This document shows, in pieces, positions 1,142 to 31,509 of a DNA stretch of 35,599 nt (its first letter is position 1; the number at the start of each line of letters is the position of its first letter). The notes beneath the pieces are model-generated. The model had not been told where the DNA came from. It saw nothing but the letters and a program-made list of their open reading frames with translations, and ran no database searches. The DNA is taken from positions 1 to 35,599 of the IMG/VR virus record IMGVR_UViG_3300025652_000228; one strand, written 5' to 3'. The stretch comes from a virus. A program made the translations under genes and the position numbers.

Positions 1142-1204
1142 CTCCGGTGGTTGGTGGTTGGTTCGTCGTTCAGTAGATATAAGCGCTTATGTAGGGGGCG
1201 TCAA
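1142..1204 (-). promoter_or_regulatory. Leftward promoter/operator/leader module, copy 1
   Basis: On the minus strand, TTGACG (1204-1199) and TATATC (1181-1176) are separated by 17 bases, a good sigma70-type promoter. The perfect 12-bp palindrome ATAAGCGCTTAT (1179-1190) overlaps the -10, as expected of a repressor operator. A CA-rich leader containing ACCAACCACC precedes GGAG (1145-1142). G-run/C-run arms flank the -35. Confidence 0.7.
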
Positions 1205-1433: not shown

Positions 1434-1492
1434 CTCCGGTGGTTGGTTGCTTCGTTCAGTAGAGATAGTCGCTTATGTGTTGGGGGTGTCAA
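1434..1492 (-). promoter_or_regulatory. Leftward promoter/operator/leader module, copy 2 (diverged operator)
   Basis: The minus strand carries a TTGACA -35 (1492-1487) embedded in a G5/C5 inverted repeat. The candidate -10 is weaker (TATCTC at 1467-1462 with 19-base spacing, or ACTATC with 17). The operator is imperfect here (ATAGTCGCTTAT on the plus strand, 1465-1476). The CA-rich leader and the GGAG-6-ATG arrangement are conserved with the other copies. Confidence 0.55.
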
Positions 1493-1698: not shown

Positions 1699-1758
1699 CT
1701 CCGGTGGTTGGTGGTTGCTTCGTCCTTACTAATATAAGCGCTTATCAAATGGCGTCAA
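1699..1758 (-). promoter_or_regulatory. Leftward promoter/operator/leader module, copy 3
   Basis: On the minus strand, TTGACG (1758-1753) and TATATT (1736-1731) are 16 bases apart. The perfect palindrome ATAAGCGCTTAT (1734-1745) overlaps the -10. The same CA-rich ACCAACCACC leader leads into GGAG (1702-1699). This is the most upstream module and faces the divergent region. Confidence 0.7.
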
Positions 1759-1763
1759 TCCCC

Positions 1764-1791
1764 TTGAAGAAAAAACTTTTCTGGGTATGCT
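1764..1791 (+). promoter_or_regulatory. Candidate rightward promoter of the replication region
   Basis: TTGAAG at 1764-1769 and TATGCT at 1786-1791 are 16 bases apart, each matching 4 of 6 consensus positions. It is back-to-back with the leftward module. If used, it gives a leader of about 200 bases before the primase-helicase gene. The match is modest. Confidence 0.3.
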
Positions 1792-1811: not shown

Positions 1812-1843
1812 AGAAAAAAGGGCGGCCACCGAAGTGACCGCCC
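1812..1843 (-). terminator. Rho-independent terminator, leftward
   Basis: GGGCGG (1820-1825) pairs with CCGCCC (1838-1843). After one mismatch CAC pairs with GTG around a CGAA tetraloop. Read leftward, the stem is followed directly by six T (1819-1814), a textbook intrinsic terminator. No leftward gene ends here, so it must terminate a short transcript started from the minus promoter near 1950. Confidence 0.75.
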
Positions 1844-1931
1844 AAATGCACCAACCACGGAGCATAGATCCGAAACCACGAAAGAGGAGTATATGAAACC
1901 TCAACCCTGACGTCGTCATGCGAACGGACCT
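1814..1931 (-). ncRNA. Predicted small antisense RNA, about 118 nt
   Basis: A strong minus-strand promoter (-35 at 1967-1962, -10 at 1943-1938) should start transcription near 1931, and an intrinsic terminator ends it near 1814. The interval has no convincing coding frame: the only long minus frame crosses both promoter and terminator and lacks a ribosome-binding site. The RNA would be complementary to the leader of any rightward transcript reaching the primase-helicase gene. By analogy with phage and plasmid antisense controls it could limit replication-gene expression. That role is inference. Confidence 0.5.
1893..1910 (+). other. Candidate five-codon leader peptide
   Basis: A GAGGAG purine run at 1884-1889 is followed, only 3 bases later, by ATG and a five-codon frame MKPQP with a TGA at 1908. 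It lies in the leader of the replication gene and inside the region antisense to the predicted small RNA. The spacing is shorter than ideal, so this may be chance. Confidence 0.2.
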
Positions 1932-1937
1932 TGTGAC

Positions 1938-1967
1938 ACTATATGTGCGCGTGCCAAGGTTCGTCAA
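1938..1967 (-). promoter_or_regulatory. Minus-strand promoter of the predicted small RNA
   Basis: On the minus strand, TTGACG (1967-1962) and TATAGT (1943-1938) are 18 bases apart, each 5 of 6 to consensus. The intrinsic terminator about 95 bases downstream makes this a complete short transcription unit. Confidence 0.6.
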
Positions 1968-2000: not shown

Positions 2001-4238
2001 ATGAACGAACTTGTCAAACAAGCAGAAGACCTGCTCGCCTATGAACCACCCTTTGTCCTGATCCCTGTGAAGCTGTCCGTCGGAGACGACGGCAGGTTAA
2101 ACAAGATCCCCGTGATGAAGTGGTCAGAGAAACCCATCCCCGAAAAAGATCTGCTCAAGAAGCTCACCGGCAAGACCGTCAATGGTCTGGCCTTCGACCT
2201 GCGCCGGTCGGGCCTCGTCGTCATCGATGTCGACGCCTACAAAGAGGCGTGCAACTGGTACGAATGGGTCGAGGAGAACGGGGTCGAGTGCCCAGCCACA
2301 TGGAAGGTCCGCAGCGGATCTGGCGGCGTGCACTATATATTTGCCAACCCTGACGGCATCCAGCTGCGCGGCCATATCGCAGGTGTCGTGGGCGTTGACA
2401 TCAAGAGCGCGGGCATCGAGATCATTCCCCCGTCGATGTGCGGCGACCGAGAGTACATCTGGATGGTCGGACCAGACGATATGGAGGAGGGACCGGCACC
2501 GATCCCGCAGTGGCTGATCGATGAATGCGCCAAGGGCGAGGATGAGGGCAGCACCCAGCAGAAGGTTGCGGTGGCGCTGTCGATGCGCGAGCCAGAGCAG
2601 AACATCGACGTCCTGTCAAAGCTGCTCGCGGTCAAGAACTCAGGCGTCGATTATTCGCAGTGGCTGTCGATCCTGATGGGCCTGCACTTCGAGTTCCACG
2701 ACACCGCGTTCGAGGATGAGGCGCTTAACTATTTGCTGGCATGGACGCGGACCCGCGTCGAGGGATGCAACGACGACGACATCGCAGCTGCAGTCAAGAC
2801 GTGGAAAGCGCTGCCCCGCATGGGCGAGATCACGGCACCATTCGTGACCGTTGCCAGCGTCTACCACTTCATCAAGTCGGCGGAGAAGCTGCCGATGCCA
2901 GAGGAGAAGGTGACCGAGCTGGAGCAGGCCATCGAGGCAGTGGAGAAACCAGCTGCAAAAGGGCTCCAGCGCCCTGAGCGGTTCAGCCCCACAGCAGTGC
3001 GCCCTCGGCCTTGGGTGCTCGGCACTGACCTGATCAAGGGCGAGGTCTCGGCGCTGTTCGCAGCCGGTGGCTCTGGCAAGTCCAGTCTCGTCATCCTGCA
3101 GGCGCTGTCCATTGCCACAGGTCGCGACCTGATGGGCTGCAAGGTCTACGGCAAGCGCACGGTCTGGCTGTGGAACGGCGAGGACGGTGCCGAGGAGCTG
3201 GCGCGCAGGGTTTACGCCGCTATGCAGCACTATGGCATCACCGAGGAGGATCTTGGCGGCCGCCTGATCATCCAGACCGGAGACAGCATGCCGATCAACA
3301 TCGCATACGAGACACCGGCGCAGGATCGGCAGCGAGGCAGGGACGTCCAGAAGGTCACCATCGACAGCCAGATGATCGACTGGATCGTGGACACCGCCAA
3401 CGCAATGGAGGTCGAGGTCGTGATGTTCGACCCCTTCATCAACACCCACCAGCTGAACGAGAACGACAACGTCCACGTCAACATCGTGATGCAGGCGTTC
3501 AAGAAGATTGCACGCGACGGCGATCTGGCTGTGCAGCTGGTGCATCACGTCGCCAAGGGCACGCTCAACGGCAAGGATGACGGCGGCAGTGCAGACGCAG
3601 CGCGCGGCGCCACGTCGTTCATTAACGCCAGTCGCGTGGGTATGGCGCTGCAGCAGATGTCGAGGGCCGAGGCCACACTGGCCGAGGTCAAGAACGAGAC
3701 GGACTACGTCAAGCTGATCGACAGCAAGGCCAACCTCGCGGCTCGCCGGTCGCAGGCAGACGTGCGGTGGTTCAAGAAGGTGAGCGTGCCCATCGGAAAC
3801 GGCACCGCGCTATACCCAGACGGCGACGAGGTCGCTGTGATGGAGAGGTTCACGATGACGGTGCCTATGCGCATGAAGCGGCTGGGCCAGATGCTCATCG
3901 TGCTTGAGACGCTGGCAGACGAGATCCGCAAGAACGACAGCGCCGATGAGGAGGAGGTCGGCTTCGTCTTCAAGAACATTGCCAACGGCTTCTGGGCGGG
4001 CTGGAAGGTCGCAGAGGTGCTGGACCTGCCGATAGGTGAGCAAGGCAGAGAAGATGGCCGCAGCGATGCAGAGAATACCAATCGCGAGCTGATCATGCAC
4101 CTACTCAGCGAGTGCGTCTCGGCAGGCTACCTCAAGAACACCGACAAGCGGATGAAGGCAAACGACGGCAAGTTCGCACCCGTCTACACCGTCGAGGATG
4201 ACGCGTTTTCGGTCATCAAAACACTGATGAAATCATAA
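2001..4238 (+). CDS. Primase-helicase: prim-pol domain plus RepA/DnaB-type AAA ATPase
   Basis: Replication protein of 745 residues. Residues about 15-175 look like the bifunctional primase/polymerase (AEP) domain: VIDVD with D76 and D78, GSGGVH ending at H111, and VDIKSAG followed by PPS. A PriCT-like helical region follows (about 205-290). Residues about 335-560 form a RepA/DnaB-like ATPase with Walker A GGSGKS at 356-361, a WLWNGED strand, Walker B VVMFDP and a VQLVHHVAKG motif, then GSADAARGATSF. The C-terminus (about 600-745) is charged and unrecognised. It should prime and unwind phage DNA. No polymerase gene is visible in the window, so the host polymerase may be used. GGGA precedes the ATG by 6 bases. 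An origin-like region lies directly downstream. Confidence 0.9.
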   Translation: MNELVKQAEDLLAYEPPFVLIPVKLSVGDDGRLNKIPVMKWSEKPIPEKDLLKKLTGKTVNGLAFDLRRSGLVVIDVDAYKEACNWYEWVEENGVECPATWKVRSGSGGVHYIFANPDGIQLRGHIAGVVGVDIKSAGIEIIPPSMCGDREYIWMVGPDDMEEGPAPIPQWLIDECAKGEDEGSTQQKVAVALSMREPEQNIDVLSKLLAVKNSGVDYSQWLSILMGLHFEFHDTAFEDEALNYLLAWTRTRVEGCNDDDIAAAVKTWKALPRMGEITAPFVTVASVYHFIKSAEKLPMPEEKVTELEQAIEAVEKPAAKGLQRPERFSPTAVRPRPWVLGTDLIKGEVSALFAAGGSGKSSLVILQALSIATGRDLMGCKVYGKRTVWLWNGEDGAEELARRVYAAMQHYGITEEDLGGRLIIQTGDSMPINIAYETPAQDRQRGRDVQKVTIDSQMIDWIVDTANAMEVEVVMFDPFINTHQLNENDNVHVNIVMQAFKKIARDGDLAVQLVHHVAKGTLNGKDDGGSADAARGATSFINASRVGMALQQMSRAEATLAEVKNETDYVKLIDSKANLAARRSQADVRWFKKVSVPIGNGTALYPDGDEVAVMERFTMTVPMRMKRLGQMLIVLETLADEIRKNDSADEEEVGFVFKNIANGFWAGWKVAEVLDLPIGEQGREDGRSDAENTNRELIMHLLSECVSAGYLKNTDKRMKANDGKFAPVYTVEDDAFSVIKTLMKS

Positions 4239-4476: not shown

Positions 4477-4554
4477 TATTGGATGAGAGTGTTGCGCCGC
4501 CGACATCGAAAGTGTAGGCTCGCAGAACCAACCACAAACCAAGGAGCTTGAGAG

Positions 4555-5694
4555 ATGACCACCCTATCAGTTGAACAGGATCGAATGCTCGAACTGTTAT
4601 TGAGGAAGAGGAACGGCTTGTCGTTCGGAGGCTATGCTGGCACGGGGAAGACCACTGTGCTTGCCGAGCTTGCACGCAGAGACAGGACCGTGATCTTCGC
4701 GGCACCCACGAACAAGGCAGCGGCAGTGTTGAGGTCGAAGATGCCGAAGGGCACAGATGTCCGCACTTTCCACGCTCTCACCCAGATGCCCATGCTCGAT
4801 GAGAAGGGCATGCTCATCGGGTTCAACTCGTCCAACGAGCCGCTGGAGGAGGGCACGCACGTCGTCGTGGATGAGGCAAGCATGATTGGCGAGAAGACAT
4901 GGCGCATCGCTGCGCGTGCGCTGGAGCATGCGACCGTGAACCTCGTCGGCGATCCTGCGCAGCTGCCGCCGGTGAACGACGACCCGATCTTCAAGATGGC
5001 AGACCTGACCATGATCCTGCGCGAGGTTCACCGGCAGGCGAACCAAAGCCCAGTGCTTGAGCTGGCCACGCGGGTCAGGGAGCAGAACAAGTTCGAGGAC
5101 GTCTGGCTGGATGAGCTTGGCATCGACAGGATCGGCGCTCTCGCCCTCAAGAGGTCGCCTGAGAGGATGGAGGAGATCTGGCAGGGCTGCGCACAGTTTT
5201 TGTGCTTCACCAACCTCACACGTCGCAACATGAACAGGGCTGTCCGCACGTCGATGGGCAACCCAAGTCCTGAGCCAGACATCGATGACATGCTGACCTT
5301 CTACATGAGAGAGAACACAGATGGTGTGCCGCGATGGAACAACGGATCGACAGCCCGCGTCATGGACGTGATCGAGAGCCTGAACGGAGCGCACAACATC
5401 GCTGTCGAGCTGGACGGCGGTGGTGGTGGCTTTGGCCATGACGAGATCACCGTCTATGAGGGCATCCTCGACGCCGAAAGCCCACAGAACGCTGTCTATG
5501 ATTTGCCTGACCACCTGCGCGGTGCATTCGCATGCGCCAGCTATTCGTATGGACTGACAGTCCACAAGGCGCAGGGGTCTGAGTGGGACAAGGTCTATCT
5601 GCAGGGCAATAACAAACCGAGAGGGCTGGACGGCATCCGCTGGCTGTACACCGGCATAACAAGGGCAGCCAACGAGCTGGTGTGGGTCGAATGA
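4555..5694 (+). CDS. SF1B DNA helicase, Dda/RecD-like
   Basis: A 379-residue superfamily 1 helicase with all core motifs. Motif I is GYAGTGKTT (K32), Ia is APTNKAA, and motif II is VVVDEAS (D106, E107). Motif III is GDPAQLPPV, motif IV is ILREVHRQ, motif V is TVHKAQGSEWDKV, and motif VI is YTGITRAANELV at the very C-terminus. The length and layout fit T4 Dda and short RecD2-like 5'-3' helicases. The likely role is replication initiation, fork progression or recombination. The motif V to VI spacing is intact, so it should be active. AGGAG lies 8 bases before the ATG. The 3' end overlaps the next start as ATGA, which couples it to the small protein and the resolvase. Confidence 0.92.
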   Translation: MTTLSVEQDRMLELLLRKRNGLSFGGYAGTGKTTVLAELARRDRTVIFAAPTNKAAAVLRSKMPKGTDVRTFHALTQMPMLDEKGMLIGFNSSNEPLEEGTHVVVDEASMIGEKTWRIAARALEHATVNLVGDPAQLPPVNDDPIFKMADLTMILREVHRQANQSPVLELATRVREQNKFEDVWLDELGIDRIGALALKRSPERMEEIWQGCAQFLCFTNLTRRNMNRAVRTSMGNPSPEPDIDDMLTFYMRENTDGVPRWNNGSTARVMDVIESLNGAHNIAVELDGGGGGFGHDEITVYEGILDAESPQNAVYDLPDHLRGAFACASYSYGLTVHKAQGSEWDKVYLQGNNKPRGLDGIRWLYTGITRAANELVWVE

Positions 5695-7192: not shown

Positions 7193-8681
7193 CCCACGCA
7201 TGGCCCAGCGTCTGCTGGTCGAGCAGATCTCGGCGTTCTACGACGATCCGCTGGGCCATGTGCTGTTCAGCTATCCGTGGGGCACTGGGCAGCTGCAGGG
7301 CCGTGATGGCCCACAGGAATGGCAGCGCGAGATGCTCACCGACATCGGCGAGGCTGTCCGCAAGAACGGGTTCGACGGCATCCACGCTGTCGAGGCGCTG
7401 CGCTACAGCACAGCCAGCGGCCACGGCATCGGCAAGTCTGCCATCGTGGCGTGGATCATCCGGTGGATCATGGACACGCGGCCATTTGCCAAGGGCGTGG
7501 TCACCGCCAACACAGGGCCGCAGCTGCAGACCAAGACGTGGGCAGAGCTGGCCAAGTGGCACCACATGGGCATCACCAAGTACTGGTGGGAGATCACCAG
7601 CGGCAAGGGGTCGATGAGCTATTACCACAAGGAACACCGCGAGCAGTGGCGCTGTGATGCGCAGACCAGCCGCGAGGAGAATAGCGAGGCGTTCGCTGGC
7701 CTGCACAGCGCCAACAGCACGCCGTTCTACATCTTCGATGAGGCGTCAGGCATCCCCGACAAGATCTACGAGGTGCGCGAGGGCGGCCTGACCGATGGCG
7801 AGCCCATGACGTTCGACTTCGGCAACCCGACGCGTAACAGCGGCCGCTTCTTCGAGAACATGGAGGGCAAGTTCCGCCATCGCTTCAACCGCAGGCGCAT
7901 CGACAGCCGCGACGTCGAGCAGACCAACAAGGAGCTGTTCAAGAAGTGGGCCGAGGACTACGGCGAGAACAGCGACTTCTTCAAGGTTCGTGTGCGCGGC
8001 CTGTTCCCAGACAGCGGCAGCCTGCAGCTGATACCGATGAACCTGTACGATGAGAACATCGGCCGCGACGTCTACGTCGGGCCGACAGATCCACTGATCA
8101 TGGGCGTTGATGTCGCACGGTTCGGCGATGACCGCAGCGTCATCTGGCTCAGGCAGGGCCGAGACGCAGAGAGCCAGAACGACTGGCCGCGCCAGATCTT
8201 CAACCAGATGGACACGATGCAGTTCGCTGCACGCATCGCCGAGATCGCGAACGAGAAGCGACCAGACGCGATCTTCATCGATGGCGGCGGCGTCGGTGGC
8301 GGCGTGGTCGACCGGTGCAGGCAGATGGGGCTGGAGATCATCGAGGTGAACTTCGGAGGCAAGGCGACGCAGGCCGGTATGGGCAACATGCGCAGCCAGA
8401 TGTGGTACAACCTCAAAGAGGCGCTGAAGCAGGGCGTGCGGCTGCCAGAGATGGACGAGCTGCGCACAGATCTGACGGCGCTGGAGTATGGCTACAACAT
8501 GCGCAACGACCTGATGCTGGAGAGCAAGGCCGACGCGAAGAAGAGGGGCTTGGCATCGCCTGACCTCGCCGACGCCCTTGCCTTGACATATGCGCTGCCC
8601 GTATACCCGAATAGAGCTGGCCTCGACGGCCTGCAATACGCCCATGAGATCACAGACTACGACCCCTACAAGGAGATGTGA
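7173..8681 (+). CDS. terL: Terminase large subunit (packaging ATPase-nuclease)
   Basis: A 502-residue packaging motor. The ATPase domain has Walker A GHGIGKSA (83-90, K88) and Walker B with YIFDEAS (about 186-192). The C-terminal RNase H-like nuclease has GVDVARFGDD (D313), IFIDGGGVGGG (D370) and DLADALAL (D464/D467) as its acidic triad. Length and motif spacing are normal for a full enzyme, so it should cut concatemers and drive DNA into proheads through the portal. The start at 7173 lies within the preceding gene; ATG 7182 is an in-frame alternative. Confidence 0.95.
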   Translation: MTHMLTDPRMAQRLLVEQISAFYDDPLGHVLFSYPWGTGQLQGRDGPQEWQREMLTDIGEAVRKNGFDGIHAVEALRYSTASGHGIGKSAIVAWIIRWIMDTRPFAKGVVTANTGPQLQTKTWAELAKWHHMGITKYWWEITSGKGSMSYYHKEHREQWRCDAQTSREENSEAFAGLHSANSTPFYIFDEASGIPDKIYEVREGGLTDGEPMTFDFGNPTRNSGRFFENMEGKFRHRFNRRRIDSRDVEQTNKELFKKWAEDYGENSDFFKVRVRGLFPDSGSLQLIPMNLYDENIGRDVYVGPTDPLIMGVDVARFGDDRSVIWLRQGRDAESQNDWPRQIFNQMDTMQFAARIAEIANEKRPDAIFIDGGGVGGGVVDRCRQMGLEIIEVNFGGKATQAGMGNMRSQMWYNLKEALKQGVRLPEMDELRTDLTALEYGYNMRNDLMLESKADAKKRGLASPDLADALALTYALPVYPNRAGLDGLQYAHEITDYDPYKEM

Positions 8682-22533: not shown

Positions 22534-25500
22534 TTGACCACAGACTTCACACGCGCGCTGAGGAACGAACAGACACAACTGGCGCAGAGGAAGCTGCAGC
22601 TCGGCCGTCAATCTGGTAACCCTGACCCGCTGGCCACAGTGGCCAATCAGATGCCGATCAACGCCGAACGCCTCGCGAACCCTGAGCCAACGGCCAACTA
22701 TCTCCAAGACCAGATGAACTCGCGCGGACTAGCGCAGCAGGCCACGCAGTCTCTGCGGTGGATGGACGACGCGCCAGAGAACCCAGCGATGGTGAAGGAT
22801 GAACTGCCCCAGCTGATCGACTGGGAGCGTACGATCATGCGCAACCTCGACAGCAAGGAAGCTGGCAATGTGGCGCGCGGCTGGGAGAACGGCAAGCTCA
22901 TGTTCGGGACCATGGGCGCGGCAATGGGCTTTACTGGAAGCGCAGCAGACCTGACCGCATCCTCGCGCATGCTCGACAACCTCGCACTAGCCGCGATGGC
23001 TCAGGCTGCAGGCGAGCCGCTGGACTATAACGACCTCAAGCTGGAGGGCGGCCACGCAGGCCGCAGCGAGCGCCGGTCCATCGAGCGGTTTTTGGCCGCG
23101 ACACCGGAGGAGCGCCAGCGCCAGCTGACAGAGCTGTCTCTCGCTGTCCTCGATGACGAGGTGTCAGCCGGTCGGTACTTCGCAAAGCTGAAAGAACTAT
23201 CAGCAGAGCGCGAGAAGGTGAACTTCACAGCTGTGCAGGATCTGCGTGACATTCGGTCTACAGGTGACCTGATGGAGTGGGGCGTCGTTCAAGGCATCCC
23301 AAGCCTCGGCATCATGGCAGGTATCATCGGCGCTGGCCTGCTGACAGGTGGCGTCGGCGGCGTCGCGCTGTCGGTCGCAGCTGGTACCGTGGCAGCGCAG
23401 GGCGAGATCGTGTCCGGTCAGGTGGACAAGCTCGACAGCATGGTCATGTATACCCCAGAGATGCGCATCCGCGCTCGGCAGACGGCACTGCTCAGTGGCT
23501 CACTTGAAGCGGTGCTTGGCCCAGTAGGACGCGTCAGCGCCCTCGGTAGCCGCACCCTGTTCAATGCTGTAACGCGGCGTGAGGCACTGAGCGCGCTGTC
23601 CGAGCCAGTGCTGCGTCGGATCTCGCAAGGTTACCTGCGCCGCATCGGCGCACCCTTCTTGCGCGATGGCATCGAAGAGTTTGTCGCAGAAGGTGCCCAG
23701 ACCCTGATCGAGCAGTACGGCGTCGAGGGCAAGCTGGAGCTGAACAACGAAACCATGTGGGCTGCGCTGAACGGCGCCGTCCTCGGCGGTTTGACGGGCG
23801 GTGTGATGGGCATGACCATCGGTGCCCGTGGCGCTATCACTGACGAGCGGACAGCCAGAGCGATGGCCGACGCTGGCCAGACGGTACATACGATGGACCA
23901 GCTGGCAGCAGTGACGCAGAAGCTGAAGCTGAACTCGCGGTCTCCGTCCAAGTTCAAGGCGTTGGTGGACCGGCTGGGCCTGTCCAACACATCCGTGTAT
24001 TTTCAGACCGACGACATCGTGAAGCACGCATCCGAGATCGGCGTCAGTCCAGAGGTTCTGGTCGAGCGCCTCGGCGGGTCAGTCGCAGACTTTGACGCTG
24101 CACGCGACAGCAACGGTCGGGTCGCGGTCAAGGCCAGCGGCGTGGTCACCAGCCTTGCAGGCGACAGCGCAGACTTCATCAAGGGAAACGCATCGATCAC
24201 AGCTCAGGGCTTCACGCCTGCTGAGGCCAAATCGATGAAGGAGATCCAAGCAGAGATCGCCGATCAGGCTGCCATGCTGAACGACCTTGAGGCGATGGCA
24301 CCCAAGCGCAAGAGTATGTACAGCCAGATCACCTCGCAGCTGAAGGCCACCGGTCGAATGACCGCGCCAGAGGTCGAGGCAAACGCCGCACTGGCGACCG
24401 CATTCTTCGAGACGATGGCCACGCGCTACGGGATTGATGCGCAGGATCTGTTCCAGCGCATGGGCTTCGACGTCAAGGGCGAGGCACAGACCCTAGGCGC
24501 CCTCGCCGGTGGTCAGAAGGAGCTGGCAGCCCAGACCAAGGCTGTGGCAGGCCTGCAGGGCATTGTCAGCCAGCTTGAGGCTGCAGTCGCAGCTGCCCCG
24601 CCTGAGACCAAGGCAGCCATCGAGGCGCAGCTGCAGCAGGCTGTCGCGGAGCTGGAAGCAGCAGGCGTTGGCATCGAAGAATTGACTGCTGCAGTCGATG
24701 CTGGTATCGCGCAGTTTCAAGCTGATCGTACCAACCAAGCACAGACACCAAACATAGGAGCAGGTCGTGGACAACGTAGTGACACCCAAGGACGAACAAG
24801 AAGCGGGAGCCTATCGGCTCTTGAAGGCGCGCCGACAGTCAGAGGCGTTTCTGGCCCAGACCCGCGCCTTGTCGCAGTCGCCGAGAAATACGCAGCCGAC
24901 AACGGCATCGACCTCAAGCGCCAAGCAGAGTTCGTCAAAGTAGATCCAGAGTTCGCGGCCCGTGTCGCGGACGCCTACGAGGCTATGGAACACAACCCTC
25001 AAGACCCAGCGGTCAAAGAGGCTTACGCGAACCTGATCGCGCAGACGACGGCTCAGTACCAAGCGCTGGTCGATGCCGGTTACACTTTCTACTTCATCGA
25101 TCTCAACTCACCAGAGGGGCAGGCCTACGCTGCCTCTCCGTGGAACGCGATGTTCGACGCCAGAGATAACCAGACGATGGGCGTGTTCTCCACTGCCGAG
25201 GGGTTCGGCACCGGCGATGACTTTAGCCCAGACGCAAACCCCCTGCTTGCTGAGACAGGCATCGAGTGGCCGCTCGGCCCGAACGGCGAGATGCGCCCTG
25301 TCTACGCTAACGACCTGTTCCGCGCCGTGCATGACGCATTTGGCCACGGCCTAGAGTTCACCGGCTTCAGAGCAGATGGCGAAGAGAATGCGTGGCAGGC
25401 CCACGTTCGCTTGTTCACCGGATCTGCAGTCGCTGCCATCACCACAGAAACACGCGGCCAGAACAGCTGGCTCAACTACGGCCCAAACGGGGAAGCGAAC

Positions 25501-28500
25501 CGGACGGCTAAGGTCGAGGATACGGTGTTCGCAGACCAGAAGACTGGCCTACTTCCTGAGTTCGCGTGGACCGAGAATGTATCGCCTGATGACACGGTAG
25601 CAGCCGATTTCACTGTTCTTAACCAAGCAGGCGCTGGGCCTATTGTTGATACGTCAGTCGCCGGTGGCCTCACCAGCAAGAGCTTTATCAAGACGCGAGA
25701 CCTAGAGGGCGCGAGCATCTACCCGATGTTCGCCGACCTCACGGCAGCGGGGTCCACCTATGACAAGCTGGACGGCATCCCGCTGGCTCCAACTCCCTAC
25801 CTCGGCGGGCCGAACTTCCCGTGGCTGAAGGCTTACAGAGACGCAGGCGTCGTCTGGGCGTTCAACAAGGTGGGCGTGATCTCCAAGGTACGCAACAAAG
25901 TGCGCGCACTGAGGGAGCAATCCTTGGCACAGGGCGGCAGCGGTCGTGTTGTCATCACGATGCTCGCCATGAAGGACGACGCGCACACCTCAAACGAGAT
26001 GACCATCAACGCGCTACTCCGCACCCTTGAGGGCGTCATCGAGGCTGGGCAGTTCCCTGCAGGCCAGATCCAGAAGGCGCACGAACTCATCGTCTCCAAG
26101 AGCAATAAAAAGGATGACGGATACGCCGGTCTAGCGACCCTACCTATGCTGGACGACGCAGTGGCGCTGCACGCATGGATACGTCAGGCGACCTTCACGA
26201 CCCGCAAAGCTATGGCAAACGAGATGAACAGCGCGGCCTTCCGGTCACTGGACGGCATGTTCCCTGTTGGCCGTGTCATCCGCGAGGCCGTTGACCCAGA
26301 CTACCGCGCGACCCAACAGGGTGACGCACTGTTGGCGATGGAGATCGACCCAGACGCCGAAGACCTGATCATCGACTTTGACGACCCAGCACAGGCTGGC
26401 GACATCCCGCGCCACCCAGCATACCGCTACGGCATGCGGGGCACGCTGGTCGGGTCGTTCTCTACGCACATCCCTATGGAGGTTCTCTACAAGGATCTGC
26501 TGCAGGAAGTGACGTCCAGATCGAAAGAGGGATCGAACCCCAAGTTCTTGATGGAGCGCCTGCGCACCACTGATGAACAGATCGTCACGCCAGAGATCGT
26601 GCGCGAGGCAGAGGTCATCGAGCAGCTGCACGATTACCGCGTGGCTCAGGCGTACACCGCAGCATTGGCTGGGCAGTGGCGCAGCAGCGACAACGCCGCG
26701 AACGCCGGTGGCATCAACCCAGCGGAGTTCGAGCTTGCCCTCGTAGAGAACGAGGCCTCGGCCACCCTGACCAAGTACACCGCAGCCGACCTCAAGGCTG
26801 GGAAGAAGGACGGGTCATTCCGTGTGTTTCAGCTTGGAGACACCCGCGTTCAGGAGGGTGGCCTCAACGTCTGGATGGGCGTGAAGAAAGGCCTCGACTA
26901 TCGGCAGGAGTACCCAAGTGATGTGACCAATCAGCTGGTTGCAGACGGCATCCTGACGGACAACGAGACCGCACTTGTGGGCGTAGCCAGCAACGAGCTT
27001 GGTGTTCAGGGCATGGGTACGTTCCAAGTTCTGAAGGCCATCGAAGAGGGCGTCACGGTGCTGGATGCGTTCAAGGTTAAGAGCGCGAGCAAACCGGCTG
27101 GACTGCTGCCATCAATTTATGCTACGATGGGCTTTGAGGAAGTGGGGGCGATCCCCTTCGATCCTCAATACTTCACCAACCAAGAGATAGAAAATTTAAA
27201 AGCAGTGTGGACTAGGCAGGGGTGGCTCGAAGGAGACGCGTTCCCTGATGTGGCCATCATGAAATGGAGGGGCGACGATGCCATACGATCCGAAGCAACT
27301 AAACGATTTGTTCTTGAGGGCCAAGACGGTCTTGGGATCAGAAGCGGAGCAGACCTTGACGAGTTCAAGGCCGCGCAACGACGCCTACCTGACGGCGCTC
27401 CAGCTGGCAACGAAGGAGATGGGGTCACCGGACAAGGTGACGGACGAGCAAATCCTCGGCGCTTTGCAGACCGCGCACGAAGTGTTTCCGGTCGAGCTAG
27501 GAGCTTTGCCAACAACGTAATTGCTGCAGACGAGGCAGCGACCAACGCCCTGAAACTGCCTAAGAGCATGATCGACGCGATACGGGCGCAGTACGGGGAA
27601 CCGGTTGCGCCCCAAGGCCAAGGCCAAGGCCAAGGCCAAGGCCAAGTCCTGAACCAGCAGAACCGTGGACAGATCGCGATGCCGTCCAACCTGACGGAGG
27701 CGCGGTCGGTGATCACGCTGTTCCAGAAGTCGGACAAGTCCACGTTCGTCCATGAGGCAGGGCACTTCTTCCTGCAGGCCTTCAAGGAGCTGTCGATGCT
27801 GCCGACGGCACCGGCTGACATGGTCGCTGACATGGACACCATCAACGAGTTCCTCGGTCGTGGTCAGGGCGAGCAATCGCCGTTCACCGTGGCCCAGCAG
27901 GAGCAGTGGGCCGTGGCGTTCGAGAAGTACATCGAGACCGGCAAGGCGCCATCTGTCGAACTGCGCACATCCTTCGAGCGCCTGCGCAAATGGATCGTCA
28001 ACCTGTATCGCCAGTTCGGAGGCTTGAATGTCGAGCTACCACCGGAGGTGACCGAGGTCATGGACCGGATGCTGGCGACCGACGACGCCATCGCCATCGC
28101 CAAGGCCGAGCAGGGCATGGGGCAGATGCTCACGGCCAAGCCACCGAATATGACAGAGGAGGTCTGGGCGGCGTACCGCAAGGGTGCGATCCAGCACGAC
28201 GACGAGGCTGCCGCCACCCTGCTGGCCAAGACGATGGAGCCGATCCGCAGAGCGCGGTCGAAGGGCTACATCGAGCGCCGTGCAGTGCTGCGCGCAGAGA
28301 TCGAGGCATCTGTCGATGCCGACCCACAGCGCCGCGTCCTGCGCCGCCTTGCGACCAAGGACGCACAGCGCCTAGACCGCAAGTCGATCCTCGACACCTA
28401 CGGCCAAGAGGCGCTGGACGATCTGGACAAGCACACCGAAAAGGGGCGCAAGGTCTACGGCACCGGCGAGCCATCCATCGAGGCGGTCGCCCACCAGTAT

Positions 28501-31500
28501 GGCTACAAGAACGCAGCCACCATGATTTCCGAGCTGCGCGAGATGCCGTCGCGTGAGGCGCGGATCGAGGAAGAGCTGCGCATGAAACTGCGCGAAGAGT
28601 TTGCTGATGCCCTCGATGACGGGTCCATCAAGCGTGAGGCTATGGCAGCCCTGCACAAAGACAAGAACCGCCAGCTGATGATGCTGGACCTGAACTTCAT
28701 CTTGGACACCATCAAGGCCGAGGGCGGCGAAGTCCCGACCATGATGACCAAAGCCGAGATGGAAGCACGGGTCGAGCTGGAGGTCAGCGAGACCACCGTG
28801 CGTCAGGCGACACAGGATGCTGTCTATCTGCACGCAGAGCGGACAGCCGGTCGTAAGGCCCAGACCCTGATGGCGCGCATCATGAAGCGCATGACGTCGA
28901 AGGGGAAACCCAAGACGACGGCGAGCGAGGATCTGGTCGCGGCATTCAAGGCCAAGGAAAACCAGATCATCGCGCACATGAAGTACAACCATGCGCGCGA
29001 CACGCAGGCCATCGTTGACCGGCTGATCGCCGCCAACAAGACGGCCCGCAACAAGGACGTCGGCAAGCGCTTGGCAGAGCCACAGATCGGCACCCTGCGC
29101 GAGCTGCTGGAGAAGTATAGCTTCCGCCCCCAGTCGCCCAAGCAGCTGAAGCAGGCGCGGGATCTGGCGTCGTATGTGCAGGCGATGGTCGACGCAGGCA
29201 ATGAGGACCAGCTGGCCTTCAACGCCGAGAGCGTGATCGCCACCGGTCGGCAGAAGCACTACAGCGAACTGACAGTTGAGGAGCTGCAGGAGCTTGACGC
29301 CATCGTCAAGAACCTGATCTACGTCGGCAGGGCCACACGCAAGGTCTTGGACGGGATCACGGCGCGGGCTTACCAAGAGGTCAAGACCGACATCATCACC
29401 GAGCTGGACGCGAAGCACGAAGACGACGGCCCATCCAAGGTAGGCAAGCGTGATGAGCGCCTGCTGAAAAAAGGTAGTCGGGCTGTGCGTGGTTTCTTCC
29501 TGTCCATGTCGAATGCCGACAGCATCCTCCGCGTCCTCGACCGGACCAAGCGTGACGCTGTCGGCCTGATGGGGCGTGTCATCGCAATCCCAGTGCAGGA
29601 TGCCATGAGCAGGGCTGGCCTGCGCCGCCGTAAGAATGCCGAGTGGTTCGAGCGCGACCTGTGGAAGAAGGTCTACGGCAAGGACTACATCAAGCAGTTG
29701 CGTACGTTCACCTCGATGAAGGTCGAGGCTACGGTCGGCGGGACCAAGGAAATCCTCGACGGCTACAACCTGCTGACCATCGCCCTGAACACTGGGGCCG
29801 ACGGCAACATGGAGCGCCTGACAAACCAAGGCAGCCGCAACTTCATGACCAAGAAAGAGATCGAGCGTGTCCTGAGCGAGAACATGACCACAGAGATGTG
29901 GCAGGTGGTCAGTCAGGTCTGGGGCAAGATCAACGAGCTGTGGCCAGACATCTCCGACCTTGAGGTGCAGGCCACCGGCGTGCGCCCTCAGCAGATCACG
30001 ACCAAGATCCAGATCAAGGGTGCGCCTGCCTTCGTAAAGAACGGCGGGTACTACCCGATCCGGTACGACCGCGAGCAGGCTGTCGGCACAGTGCGCGACA
30101 CCGACGCCGACACGCAGGTCAAGAACATGGCCAGCGGCCGAGCAGCCCGTGCCCAGACCAAGAGCGGCTGGCAGGAGGCGCGGACAGCCGTCACCGGCGA
30201 TCCTCTCAGCCTGCAGTTCCACGGCGCCCTGTCCCATATGAACGACGTGGTCTACGACCTTGAGCTGCGCCTTCCTTTGTCTGGCGCGATGAAGATCCTG
30301 AAGGACAAGGAGATCAGCGGCATCCTGACAGAGAAGGGGTTCAACCAAGAGCTGGACCACTTGAAGCTGTGGGCAGAAGACGTGGCCAACGGCGACCGTC
30401 AGGCGAGCGACGCCGTATCACGCCTAGTCAAGCAGTTGCGCGAGGGCACCTCTGTCGCGGCTATGGCCTACAGCTGGACCACTCTGGTGCAGCAGCCTCT
30501 GGGCCTGTTCAACGCCGTCAACATCATTGGCGCCGGCAACCTGATCAAGGGCTTCTCTGCCTACATGGGCAACGTCCGTGAGGCGTCTGACGTCGTGATG
30601 AGTAAGTCACCCTTCATGCAGGAACGGCAGCAGACCATGCAGCGGGATATGGCACTCGCCTCAGGTGCCATGCGCGAGGACACTCTGAGCGGCGGACGCA
30701 TCGGCGCCTTCAAGCAGGGCATGCAGGCCTACGGCTTTGTGGGGATGCAGAAGCTGCAGTTCTACACGGTCGATATGCCGACATGGTACGGGGCATATGG
30801 CTCGTACATGCAGCAGGGCAAGACCGATGCCGAGGCCGTCAGCTATGCCGACCGCATGGTCGCCCGTGCCCACGGGTCGGGTGTAATTAGCGACCGGTCG
30901 GCCTTCGAGCGAGGAACGGTCGGGGCCAACACCCGCAACTCCGAGCTGGTCCGTGCCTTCACGACGTTCCAGACCTTCATCATCGCACGCCTGTCCGTCA
31001 CCTCGGTTGAGTTCAGGAACATGCGGATGGATGACCCTGCGACCATCATGAACTTCGCGACAGATCTGGCTATAGCCTACATCATACCATCGATGTTCTC
31101 GTCCTTGCTGCGGCTGCAGCCTTGGGATGAGCGCGAGCAGGACGACATCGAGGAGATGGGCATCCCGCTGTGGTGGCTGACCACACAGCTCCCCAAAGAA
31201 TTTTTGGGCGGCCCGATCATCAGCCAAGCGGTCTCATCGTGGGAAGGCTTCGGTGCCGAGACCTCGTTCGAGGCGGGCATCGGGACTATCGTCGGCGGCG
31301 GCAAGGCCATCTCGCAGATGGTGTCTGGTGACTTCAACTGGGACAGCTCCACCCGCAGCGTGATCTCTGCAGCTGGCATCGTGTTCAAGCTGCCGTCGGT
31401 GGTGATTAACAGAGGGATAAAGCAGGTGCTTGACAAGGACGGGTTGAGCGATGAGGAGCTTAACCTGCTCGAAGTTTTGTACGGCAAGAACCTTACTTTC

Positions 31501-31509
31501 GCCGAATAA
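22534..31509 (+). CDS. Giant polyvalent internal virion protein (2991 aa) with metal-site and zincin domains
   Basis: A single frame of 2991 residues from a TTG (AGGGA 8 bases upstream). Hydrophobic segments lie at about 245-290 and 406-436, and helical regions at about 570-725. A block at about 775-1010 contains VHDAFGH (H933, H938) and GEENAWQAH. A further unnamed block spans about 1030-1400. A domain at about 1405-1580 includes LDAFKVKS and ATMGFEEVG. After a GQ-repeat linker (1694-1704) comes a zincin, FVHEAGHFFL (H1740, E1741, H1744; possible third ligand E1790 or E1797). A charged helical region and a hydrophobic C-terminus (from about 2640) follow. It resembles the large polyvalent proteins ejected with DNA. 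No RNA polymerase motifs seen. Two linkers overlap out-of-frame ORFs. Confidence 0.8.
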   Translation: MTTDFTRALRNEQTQLAQRKLQLGRQSGNPDPLATVANQMPINAERLANPEPTANYLQDQMNSRGLAQQATQSLRWMDDAPENPAMVKDELPQLIDWERTIMRNLDSKEAGNVARGWENGKLMFGTMGAAMGFTGSAADLTASSRMLDNLALAAMAQAAGEPLDYNDLKLEGGHAGRSERRSIERFLAATPEERQRQLTELSLAVLDDEVSAGRYFAKLKELSAEREKVNFTAVQDLRDIRSTGDLMEWGVVQGIPSLGIMAGIIGAGLLTGGVGGVALSVAAGTVAAQGEIVSGQVDKLDSMVMYTPEMRIRARQTALLSGSLEAVLGPVGRVSALGSRTLFNAVTRREALSALSEPVLRRISQGYLRRIGAPFLRDGIEEFVAEGAQTLIEQYGVEGKLELNNETMWAALNGAVLGGLTGGVMGMTIGARGAITDERTARAMADAGQTVHTMDQLAAVTQKLKLNSRSPSKFKALVDRLGLSNTSVYFQTDDIVKHASEIGVSPEVLVERLGGSVADFDAARDSNGRVAVKASGVVTSLAGDSADFIKGNASITAQGFTPAEAKSMKEIQAEIADQAAMLNDLEAMAPKRKSMYSQITSQLKATGRMTAPEVEANAALATAFFETMATRYGIDAQDLFQRMGFDVKGEAQTLGALAGGQKELAAQTKAVAGLQGIVSQLEAAVAAAPPETKAAIEAQLQQAVAELEAAGVGIEELTAAVDAGIAQFQADRTNQAQTPNIGAGRGQRSDTQGRTRSGSLSALEGAPTVRGVSGPDPRLVAVAEKYAADNGIDLKRQAEFVKVDPEFAARVADAYEAMEHNPQDPAVKEAYANLIAQTTAQYQALVDAGYTFYFIDLNSPEGQAYAASPWNAMFDARDNQTMGVFSTAEGFGTGDDFSPDANPLLAETGIEWPLGPNGEMRPVYANDLFRAVHDAFGHGLEFTGFRADGEENAWQAHVRLFTGSAVAAITTETRGQNSWLNYGPNGEANRTAKVEDTVFADQKTGLLPEFAWTENVSPDDTVAADFTVLNQAGAGPIVDTSVAGGLTSKSFIKTRDLEGASIYPMFADLTAAGSTYDKLDGIPLAPTPYLGGPNFPWLKAYRDAGVVWAFNKVGVISKVRNKVRALREQSLAQGGSGRVVITMLAMKDDAHTSNEMTINALLRTLEGVIEAGQFPAGQIQKAHELIVSKSNKKDDGYAGLATLPMLDDAVALHAWIRQATFTTRKAMANEMNSAAFRSLDGMFPVGRVIREAVDPDYRATQQGDALLAMEIDPDAEDLIIDFDDPAQAGDIPRHPAYRYGMRGTLVGSFSTHIPMEVLYKDLLQEVTSRSKEGSNPKFLMERLRTTDEQIVTPEIVREAEVIEQLHDYRVAQAYTAALAGQWRSSDNAANAGGINPAEFELALVENEASATLTKYTAADLKAGKKDGSFRVFQLGDTRVQEGGLNVWMGVKKGLDYRQEYPSDVTNQLVADGILTDNETALVGVASNELGVQGMGTFQVLKAIEEGVTVLDAFKVKSASKPAGLLPSIYATMGFEEVGAIPFDPQYFTNQEIENLKAVWTRQGWLEGDAFPDVAIMKWRGDDAIRSEATKRFVLEGQDGLGIRSGADLDEFKAAQRRLPDGAPAGNEGDGVTGQGDGRANPRRFADRARSVSGRARSFANNVIAADEAATNALKLPKSMIDAIRAQYGEPVAPQGQGQGQGQGQVLNQQNRGQIAMPSNLTEARSVITLFQKSDKSTFVHEAGHFFLQAFKELSMLPTAPADMVADMDTINEFLGRGQGEQSPFTVAQQEQWAVAFEKYIETGKAPSVELRTSFERLRKWIVNLYRQFGGLNVELPPEVTEVMDRMLATDDAIAIAKAEQGMGQMLTAKPPNMTEEVWAAYRKGAIQHDDEAAATLLAKTMEPIRRARSKGYIERRAVLRAEIEASVDADPQRRVLRRLATKDAQRLDRKSILDTYGQEALDDLDKHTEKGRKVYGTGEPSIEAVAHQYGYKNAATMISELREMPSREARIEEELRMKLREEFADALDDGSIKREAMAALHKDKNRQLMMLDLNFILDTIKAEGGEVPTMMTKAEMEARVELEVSETTVRQATQDAVYLHAERTAGRKAQTLMARIMKRMTSKGKPKTTASEDLVAAFKAKENQIIAHMKYNHARDTQAIVDRLIAANKTARNKDVGKRLAEPQIGTLRELLEKYSFRPQSPKQLKQARDLASYVQAMVDAGNEDQLAFNAESVIATGRQKHYSELTVEELQELDAIVKNLIYVGRATRKVLDGITARAYQEVKTDIITELDAKHEDDGPSKVGKRDERLLKKGSRAVRGFFLSMSNADSILRVLDRTKRDAVGLMGRVIAIPVQDAMSRAGLRRRKNAEWFERDLWKKVYGKDYIKQLRTFTSMKVEATVGGTKEILDGYNLLTIALNTGADGNMERLTNQGSRNFMTKKEIERVLSENMTTEMWQVVSQVWGKINELWPDISDLEVQATGVRPQQITTKIQIKGAPAFVKNGGYYPIRYDREQAVGTVRDTDADTQVKNMASGRAARAQTKSGWQEARTAVTGDPLSLQFHGALSHMNDVVYDLELRLPLSGAMKILKDKEISGILTEKGFNQELDHLKLWAEDVANGDRQASDAVSRLVKQLREGTSVAAMAYSWTTLVQQPLGLFNAVNIIGAGNLIKGFSAYMGNVREASDVVMSKSPFMQERQQTMQRDMALASGAMREDTLSGGRIGAFKQGMQAYGFVGMQKLQFYTVDMPTWYGAYGSYMQQGKTDAEAVSYADRMVARAHGSGVISDRSAFERGTVGANTRNSELVRAFTTFQTFIIARLSVTSVEFRNMRMDDPATIMNFATDLAIAYIIPSMFSSLLRLQPWDEREQDDIEEMGIPLWWLTTQLPKEFLGGPIISQAVSSWEGFGAETSFEAGIGTIVGGGKAISQMVSGDFNWDSSTRSVISAAGIVFKLPSVVINRGIKQVLDKDGLSDEELNLLEVLYGKNLTFAE
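24767..24943 (+). other. Candidate nested ORF 1 (58 aa, +1 frame) inside the giant gene
   Basis: A GTG at 24767 with AGGAG (24756-24760) 6 bases upstream opens a 58-codon frame in +1 relative to the giant gene. The first 37 residues look protein-like (DNVVTPKDEQEAGAYRLLKA, then RRQSEAFLAQ); the rest is Ser/Thr-rich. In the same bases the main frame reads as a Gly/Arg/Ser linker (GAGRGQRSDTQGRTRSGSLS). It is either a small overlapping gene or a relic of a gene absorbed by fusion. Confidence 0.35.
27278..27520 (+). other. Candidate nested ORF 2 (80 aa, +1 frame) inside the giant gene
   Basis: An ATG at 27278 with GGAGGGG (27266-27272) 5 bases upstream opens an 80-codon frame, again +1. The product is well balanced and helical (MPYDPKQLNDLFLRAKTVLG, then NDAYLTALQLATKEMG and VTDEQILGALQTAHEVF). 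The main frame over the same bases is a low-complexity linker (RRLPDGAPAGNEGDGVTGQG). On composition the nested frame looks more like a real protein than the main frame does here. Confidence 0.45.
27613..27645 (+). repeat. CAAGGC hexanucleotide tandem repeat encoding a (QG)n linker
   Basis: Five exact CAAGGC units (27613-27642) followed by CAA encode QGQGQGQGQGQ just before the zincin domain of the giant protein. Exact repetition at the DNA level suggests recent slippage and possible length variation between isolates. Confidence 0.9.

Follow-up and report, generated by a model that had tools for sequence, protein, structure and literature searches.

Phage small RNAs were described in a review as mostly single-target antisense RNAs, or as RNAs acting on host genes. 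In the enterobacteria, GcvB is a single RNA complementary to C/A-rich sequence near the Shine-Dalgarno of several mRNAs, and it inhibits translation of yifK by binding a stretch with ACA translation enhancers that lies immediately ahead of the Shine-Dalgarno (PMC3879156). The phage RNA predicted here has complementarity of this kind, with the Shine-Dalgarno included, but it differs from GcvB in being phage-encoded, in carrying its seed in a short hairpin loop, in having the phage's own genes as its predicted targets and in lacking any sequence relationship; the GcvB family gave no Rfam match at gathering score, and the likeness is mechanistic only. In layout it resembles OOP RNA of lambda, a short leftward RNA from pO whose promoter lies upstream of a replication gene, which is convergent with that gene and ends at an intrinsic terminator (PMC3985674, PMC12197685), although OOP is antisense to cII, is not known to carry a seed directed at leaders and shows no sequence similarity that we could see. 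The c4 RNA of P1/P7, in which the pairing sequences are believed to be placed in loops, and the sar RNA of P22 are likewise antisense RNAs of phages, and they prevent translation initiation through pairing at or close to a ribosome-binding site (PMC12197685), but both were described for one target (ant) rather than for a set of genes that share a leader. VpdS of phage VP882 is, as proposed here, a phage small RNA acting in trans, affecting both phage and host mRNAs (PMC12197685); VpdS binds Hfq, and no leader tag common to its targets has been described.

The window, by which we mean the whole stretch of DNA analysed, is a 35.6-kb IMG/VR virus record, to which all coordinates refer unless another contig is named. 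Small leftward genes (199–1698) are set against rightward replication genes, among which one encodes a Holliday junction resolvase, and against a structural module; the portal of that module has its closest match in Bordetella phage BPP-1 (45%). Further along, a single open frame of 2991 codons (22534–31509) lies between endolysin-like and tail-fibre-like genes. The features around the small-RNA unit are as follows.

1814–1931, minus strand: predicted small RNA of ~118 nt with three stem-loops, its ends predicted from promoter and terminator
1938–1967, minus strand: small-RNA promoter TTGACG-18-TATAGT (TTGACG at 1967–1962, TATAGT at 1943–1938), expected start near 1931
1843–1810, minus strand: intrinsic terminator GGGCGGTCAC-TTCG-GTGGCCGCCC plus TTTTTTCTTA (stem 1843–1820, T6 1819–1814)
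1846–1865, minus strand: seed hairpin AUGC-UCCGUGGUUGGU-GCAU, apical loop UGGU, whose sequence complements the leader motif
1764–1791, plus strand: candidate rightward promoter for the primase transcript, TTGAAG-16-TATGCT, a weak assignment from sequence
2001–4238, plus strand: primase-helicase gene (Prim-Pol and AAA_25), its leader overlapped by the predicted small RNA
4555–5694, plus strand: Dda-like helicase gene, among the rightward replication genes

The preliminary description had recognized a consensus-like promoter and a six-T intrinsic terminator flanking about 118 nt, and both are present on the minus strand at these positions, the promoter with 10 of 12 matches and the terminator with a 10-bp stem closed by a UUCG loop (1820–1843). 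Neither class is rare by itself, since the first 5 kb holds two promoters where 2.3 are expected and four terminators where 3.1 are expected. A promoter and a perfect-stem terminator on the same strand and 50–250 nt apart, however, occur together once in the 35.6-kb window against 0.025 expected from Markov simulations. The description's further statement that the unit holds no plausible gene is fair: a minus-strand frame of 36 codons (1919–1809), with AAGG ~10 nt before its ATG, crosses the terminator, and a counterpart sought in L004, a related contig, was absent. The predicted small RNA thus has its own promoter and intrinsic terminator without a conserved reading frame. An inverted repeat, ACCTTG...CAAGGT (1928–1960), surrounds the −10 of the small-RNA promoter and is perhaps an operator; in L004 an inverted repeat of different sequence, ATGCATAC-N10-GTATGCAT (3802–3827), lies around the corresponding −10 and may be one too.

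A search with the primase protein identified L003/L006 and L004/L008 as the only close relatives and found none in genomes, while a degenerate primase pattern gave only distant matches (best ~39%, covering only a section of the protein). At the small-RNA unit, L003/L006 have almost the same sequence as the window. The primase of L004/L008 is 64% identical to that of the window, and in these contigs TTGACG and CATATAGT are retained around a spacer of diverged sequence (19 nt in L004), the 5' half of the RNA is diverged and shorter, and the 20-nt motif ATGCTCCGTGGTTGGTGCAT is identical at 20 of 20 positions. In the 10-bp UUCG hairpin of L004, pairs 2, 5 and 9 are altered on both sides and the U.G at pair 7 is retained; the T tract is broken or poor (TTCTCATT), and this, like the 19-nt promoter spacer, counts against the small-RNA reading. 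The unit's place next to the primase gene, convergent with its transcript, is kept in the window and L004. Conservation of promoter and hairpin in related phages had been named as a check on the unit, and it supports an independent small RNA, the hexamers and the terminator fold being kept in L004/L008.

An IMG/VR scan with an 18-nt core of the motif yielded one additional contig, L007 (5.2 kb), which is unrelated to the window in its genes (DNA polymerase A and a cell-wall hydrolase) and on whose 5.2 kb no primase gene was seen. The core is identical at 18 of 18 nt, stands ~24 nt past the −10 box of a TTGACA-17-TACGGT promoter and immediately precedes a long terminator stem, after which comes TTTTCTTTT; a neighbouring gene (1720–2073 of L007) has the same orientation and stops a little short of that promoter, and a separate promoter-like TTGACA...TATAAG stands just after the terminator. 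By our reasoning, the chance of such a match with all its neighbours is well below 1 in 1000. The 5.2 kb of the L007 contig hold no ACCAACC leader, a point against the trans reading. No gene starts there on the strand opposite the small RNA, so that cis-antisense action on a primase is not the element's general role. The earlier proposal of an RNA antisense to the primase leader therefore stands in its geometry, which is kept in one diverged relative, but not as a general role. That geometry would apply only if primase transcription starts upstream of ~1930, for which the candidate promoter at 1764–1791, partly conserved in L004 (TATGCT and the A-rich tract), would suffice.

Only three independent copies of the motif are known. 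An exact 16-mer, GCTCCGTGGTTGGTGC, matched 22 viral contigs, and the matches other than the window-type, L004-type and L007 ones were coding-like or had a terminator that was absent or wrongly directed, and were taken as chance; L017, for example, has a hairpin nearby, but the T tract belongs to the opposite direction. Six genome matches of the 16-mer plus a T run were all judged chance, and there is accordingly no sign of a host-derived copy. A relaxed seed scan added nothing convincing to these (L179 and L182 were looked at but left out of the count), a scan for ATAAGCGCTTAT...ACCAACC gave no further phage of the window's type, and BLAST searches with the element in phage and plasmid collections likewise yielded no copy that convinced. 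At gathering score, Rfam placed no family in the window, L004, L007 or L008; sbrA (RF01489; 31.6 bits against a threshold of 45) and AniS (RF02274; 23.5 bits against 50) were rejected.

The 119-nt RNA has a computed fold of −48 kcal/mol (z = −4.3), a large share of which comes from the terminator. The terminator hairpin is stabler on the small-RNA strand than on the other by 4.5 to 9 kcal/mol in the window (−19.4 against −14.9 kcal/mol), L004 (−19.6 against −15.1 kcal/mol) and L007 (−31.9 against −22.9 kcal/mol), and the U.G at pair 7 on the minus strand corresponds to a mismatched C.A on the plus strand. In all three the predicted fold includes the seed hairpin GC.CCG-UGGU-UGG.GC, in which UGGU is left open. 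Conservation, compensatory stem changes and strand-specific folding support an independent minus-strand small RNA, and we regard the unit as very probably a real small RNA; the replication-control role first suggested for it we can only infer.

The preliminary description overlooked the strongest feature, which points to action in trans: the motif hairpin UGC-UCCGUGGUUGGU-GCA has its complement in ACCAACCAC(C)GGAG, a C/A-rich leader with its Shine-Dalgarno that precedes no fewer than three leftward genes. The window's predicted targets, and the promoter of one of them, are these.

1699–1712, minus strand: predicted trans target, leader ACCAACCACCGGAG of gene 1698–1489, duplex −24.7 kcal/mol
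1434–1447, minus strand: predicted trans target, leader ACCAACCACCGGAG of gene 1433–1215, duplex −25.1 kcal/mol
1142–1162, minus strand: predicted trans target, doubled leader ACCAACCACCAACCACCGGAG of gene 1141–806, duplex −24.7 kcal/mol
4527–4546, plus strand: weaker predicted target, partial match, leader ACCAACCACAAACCAAGGAG of the Dda-like helicase gene 4555–5694
1731–1758, minus strand: promoter of target gene 1698–1489, assigned from sequence, TTGACG-16-TATATT, with palindrome ATAAGCGCTTAT at 1734–1745

The Dda-like helicase leader gives −23.2 kcal/mol with the whole seed hairpin and −18.4 with the seed core, and a gene near 746 is another weaker predicted target. ACCAACC falls at −40 to −8 of Shine-Dalgarno-bearing starts at 7 of its 12 sites in the window, far above what the share of sequence in such zones would give (P 5e-6), a count that includes 24730, inside a gene, and the overlapping pair 1155/1162; in L008, 7 of 10 sites precede such starts (P 2e-6), and the leader at 8260 contains the perfect 13-nt complement ACCAACCACGGAG. 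Elsewhere in L008 (6037–6089), a hairpin abuts the leader ACCAACCATAGGAG and, read on the other strand, resembles a terminator (GTTTTCTTAG). Over its five best leaders the seed has a mean duplex energy of −24.2 kcal/mol, compared with −17.1 for shuffled seeds; not one of 500 shuffles matched the real value, the best giving −21.5. One of the five, that of gene 199–414, has no ACCAACC, pairs via CGGAGCA and may be incidental; because ~6% of random window stretches reach −20, only ACCAACC leaders are put forward as targets. Opening the seed costs 7.1 kcal/mol, and opening the target leaders 0.4–3.7, against a mean of 5.9 for other leaders. The prediction is thus of a conserved, accessible seed complementary to the initiation regions of several mRNAs. 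Since the seed is identical in all known copies, there is no seed–leader covariation; the main doubt is that the plus strand of the motif reads ACCAACCACGGAG, so that likeness to a leader would by itself give the same complementarity without function.

We favour, with modest confidence, the explanation that a ~118-nt phage small RNA blocks translation of several phage mRNAs in trans and is also antisense to the primase leader. The sequence itself shows the promoter, the terminator, the conservation and the complementarity, and folds and duplex energies are computed; that the RNA is transcribed, that it pairs in the cell and that it represses, and when, we infer. Minus-strand transcription would start near 1931 and stop at the intrinsic terminator at 1814, and the middle hairpin of the RNA would display UCCGUGGUUGGU with its UGGU loop open. 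This loop would first contact ACCA repeats in unstructured C/A-rich leaders of phage mRNAs, from where pairing would zipper across ACCAACCAC(C)GGAG, covering both the enhancer-like sequence and the Shine-Dalgarno, so that ribosomes would be unable to load. Because the leader region of the rightward primase transcript also contains the small-RNA gene, the RNA would be a fully complementary antisense RNA on that leader, adding an effect in cis, and its transcription could also interfere with rightward primase transcription. Of the functions considered, trans action on the leader common to these genes has the best support, and we rate it slightly more likely than not. One phage RNA that addressed several genes in this way would be a simple post-transcriptional means of timing them together.

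In the main rival explanation the RNA is real but works in cis alone, as an antisense RNA and convergent transcription unit across the primase leader that would restrict synthesis of the replication protein much as lambda pO/OOP does; its resemblance to other leaders would then be a by-product. The unit does lie just upstream of, and convergent with, a replication gene in both the window and L004, and pO activity in lambda reduces transcription from pR into the replication region (PMC3985674). Yet in L007 this seed hairpin and terminator face no gene start on the other strand, the rightward promoter for the primase is weak and putative, and a cis antisense RNA has no need of a fixed seed, whereas the 20-nt motif is kept while the remaining overlap diverges; we consider this explanation unlikely. 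Less probable again is that function resides in the plus strand, the primase leader bearing an extra copy of ACCAACCACGGAG behind a stabilising hairpin and the minus-strand complementarity being trivial. In L004 the motif is followed 9 nt later by the ATG of an 8-codon frame, and L008 (6037–6089) and L179 have a sense-strand order of hairpin, ACCAACC, Shine-Dalgarno and ATG. Against this, the window has no start codon at a usable distance past the plus-strand GGAG and L007 no gene after the motif, the hairpins carry C.A on the plus strand where the minus has U.G, the minus-strand promoter is conserved, and TGC...GCA flanks none of the true leaders seen here.

It is very improbable that the unit is the attenuated leader of a leftward operon, whose transcript would mostly stop at 1814 and otherwise read into the 1698 gene: leftward genes do start downstream on the same strand, but they possess their own promoter (1758–1731), the predicted fold has no evident alternative antiterminator, and in L007 a separate promoter-like site likewise follows the terminator. 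Chance matches to a promoter and a terminator, with no transcript, would fit the chance-level frequency of each motif taken singly; given the rarity of the pairing, the conservation of the features in L004 and their recurrence in L007, we give this explanation scarcely any weight.

The trans-acting RNA could be part of a wider arrangement, which we put forward tentatively: a 'leader tag' regulon in which unrelated genes stand behind a common cassette of TTGACN, ATAAGCGCTTAT and ACCAACCACCGGAG, and a differently controlled small RNA silences them all via its hairpin loop, as a module shared between otherwise unrelated phages. The three leftward genes each have a TTGACG or TTGACA promoter, a ATAAGCGCTTAT-like palindrome (1734–1745, 1179–1190 and, degenerate, 1465–1476), and then the leader ACCAACCACCGGAG and ATG; the small-RNA promoter lacks the palindrome of its targets and so could be timed differently. 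The palindrome ATAAGCG(N)CTTAT recurs in TTGACN promoters of ACCAACC-leader genes, also in L008 at 585, 1518 and 8235. It may serve as the operator of a phage regulon, and the window phage and L008 seem to have different genes behind it.
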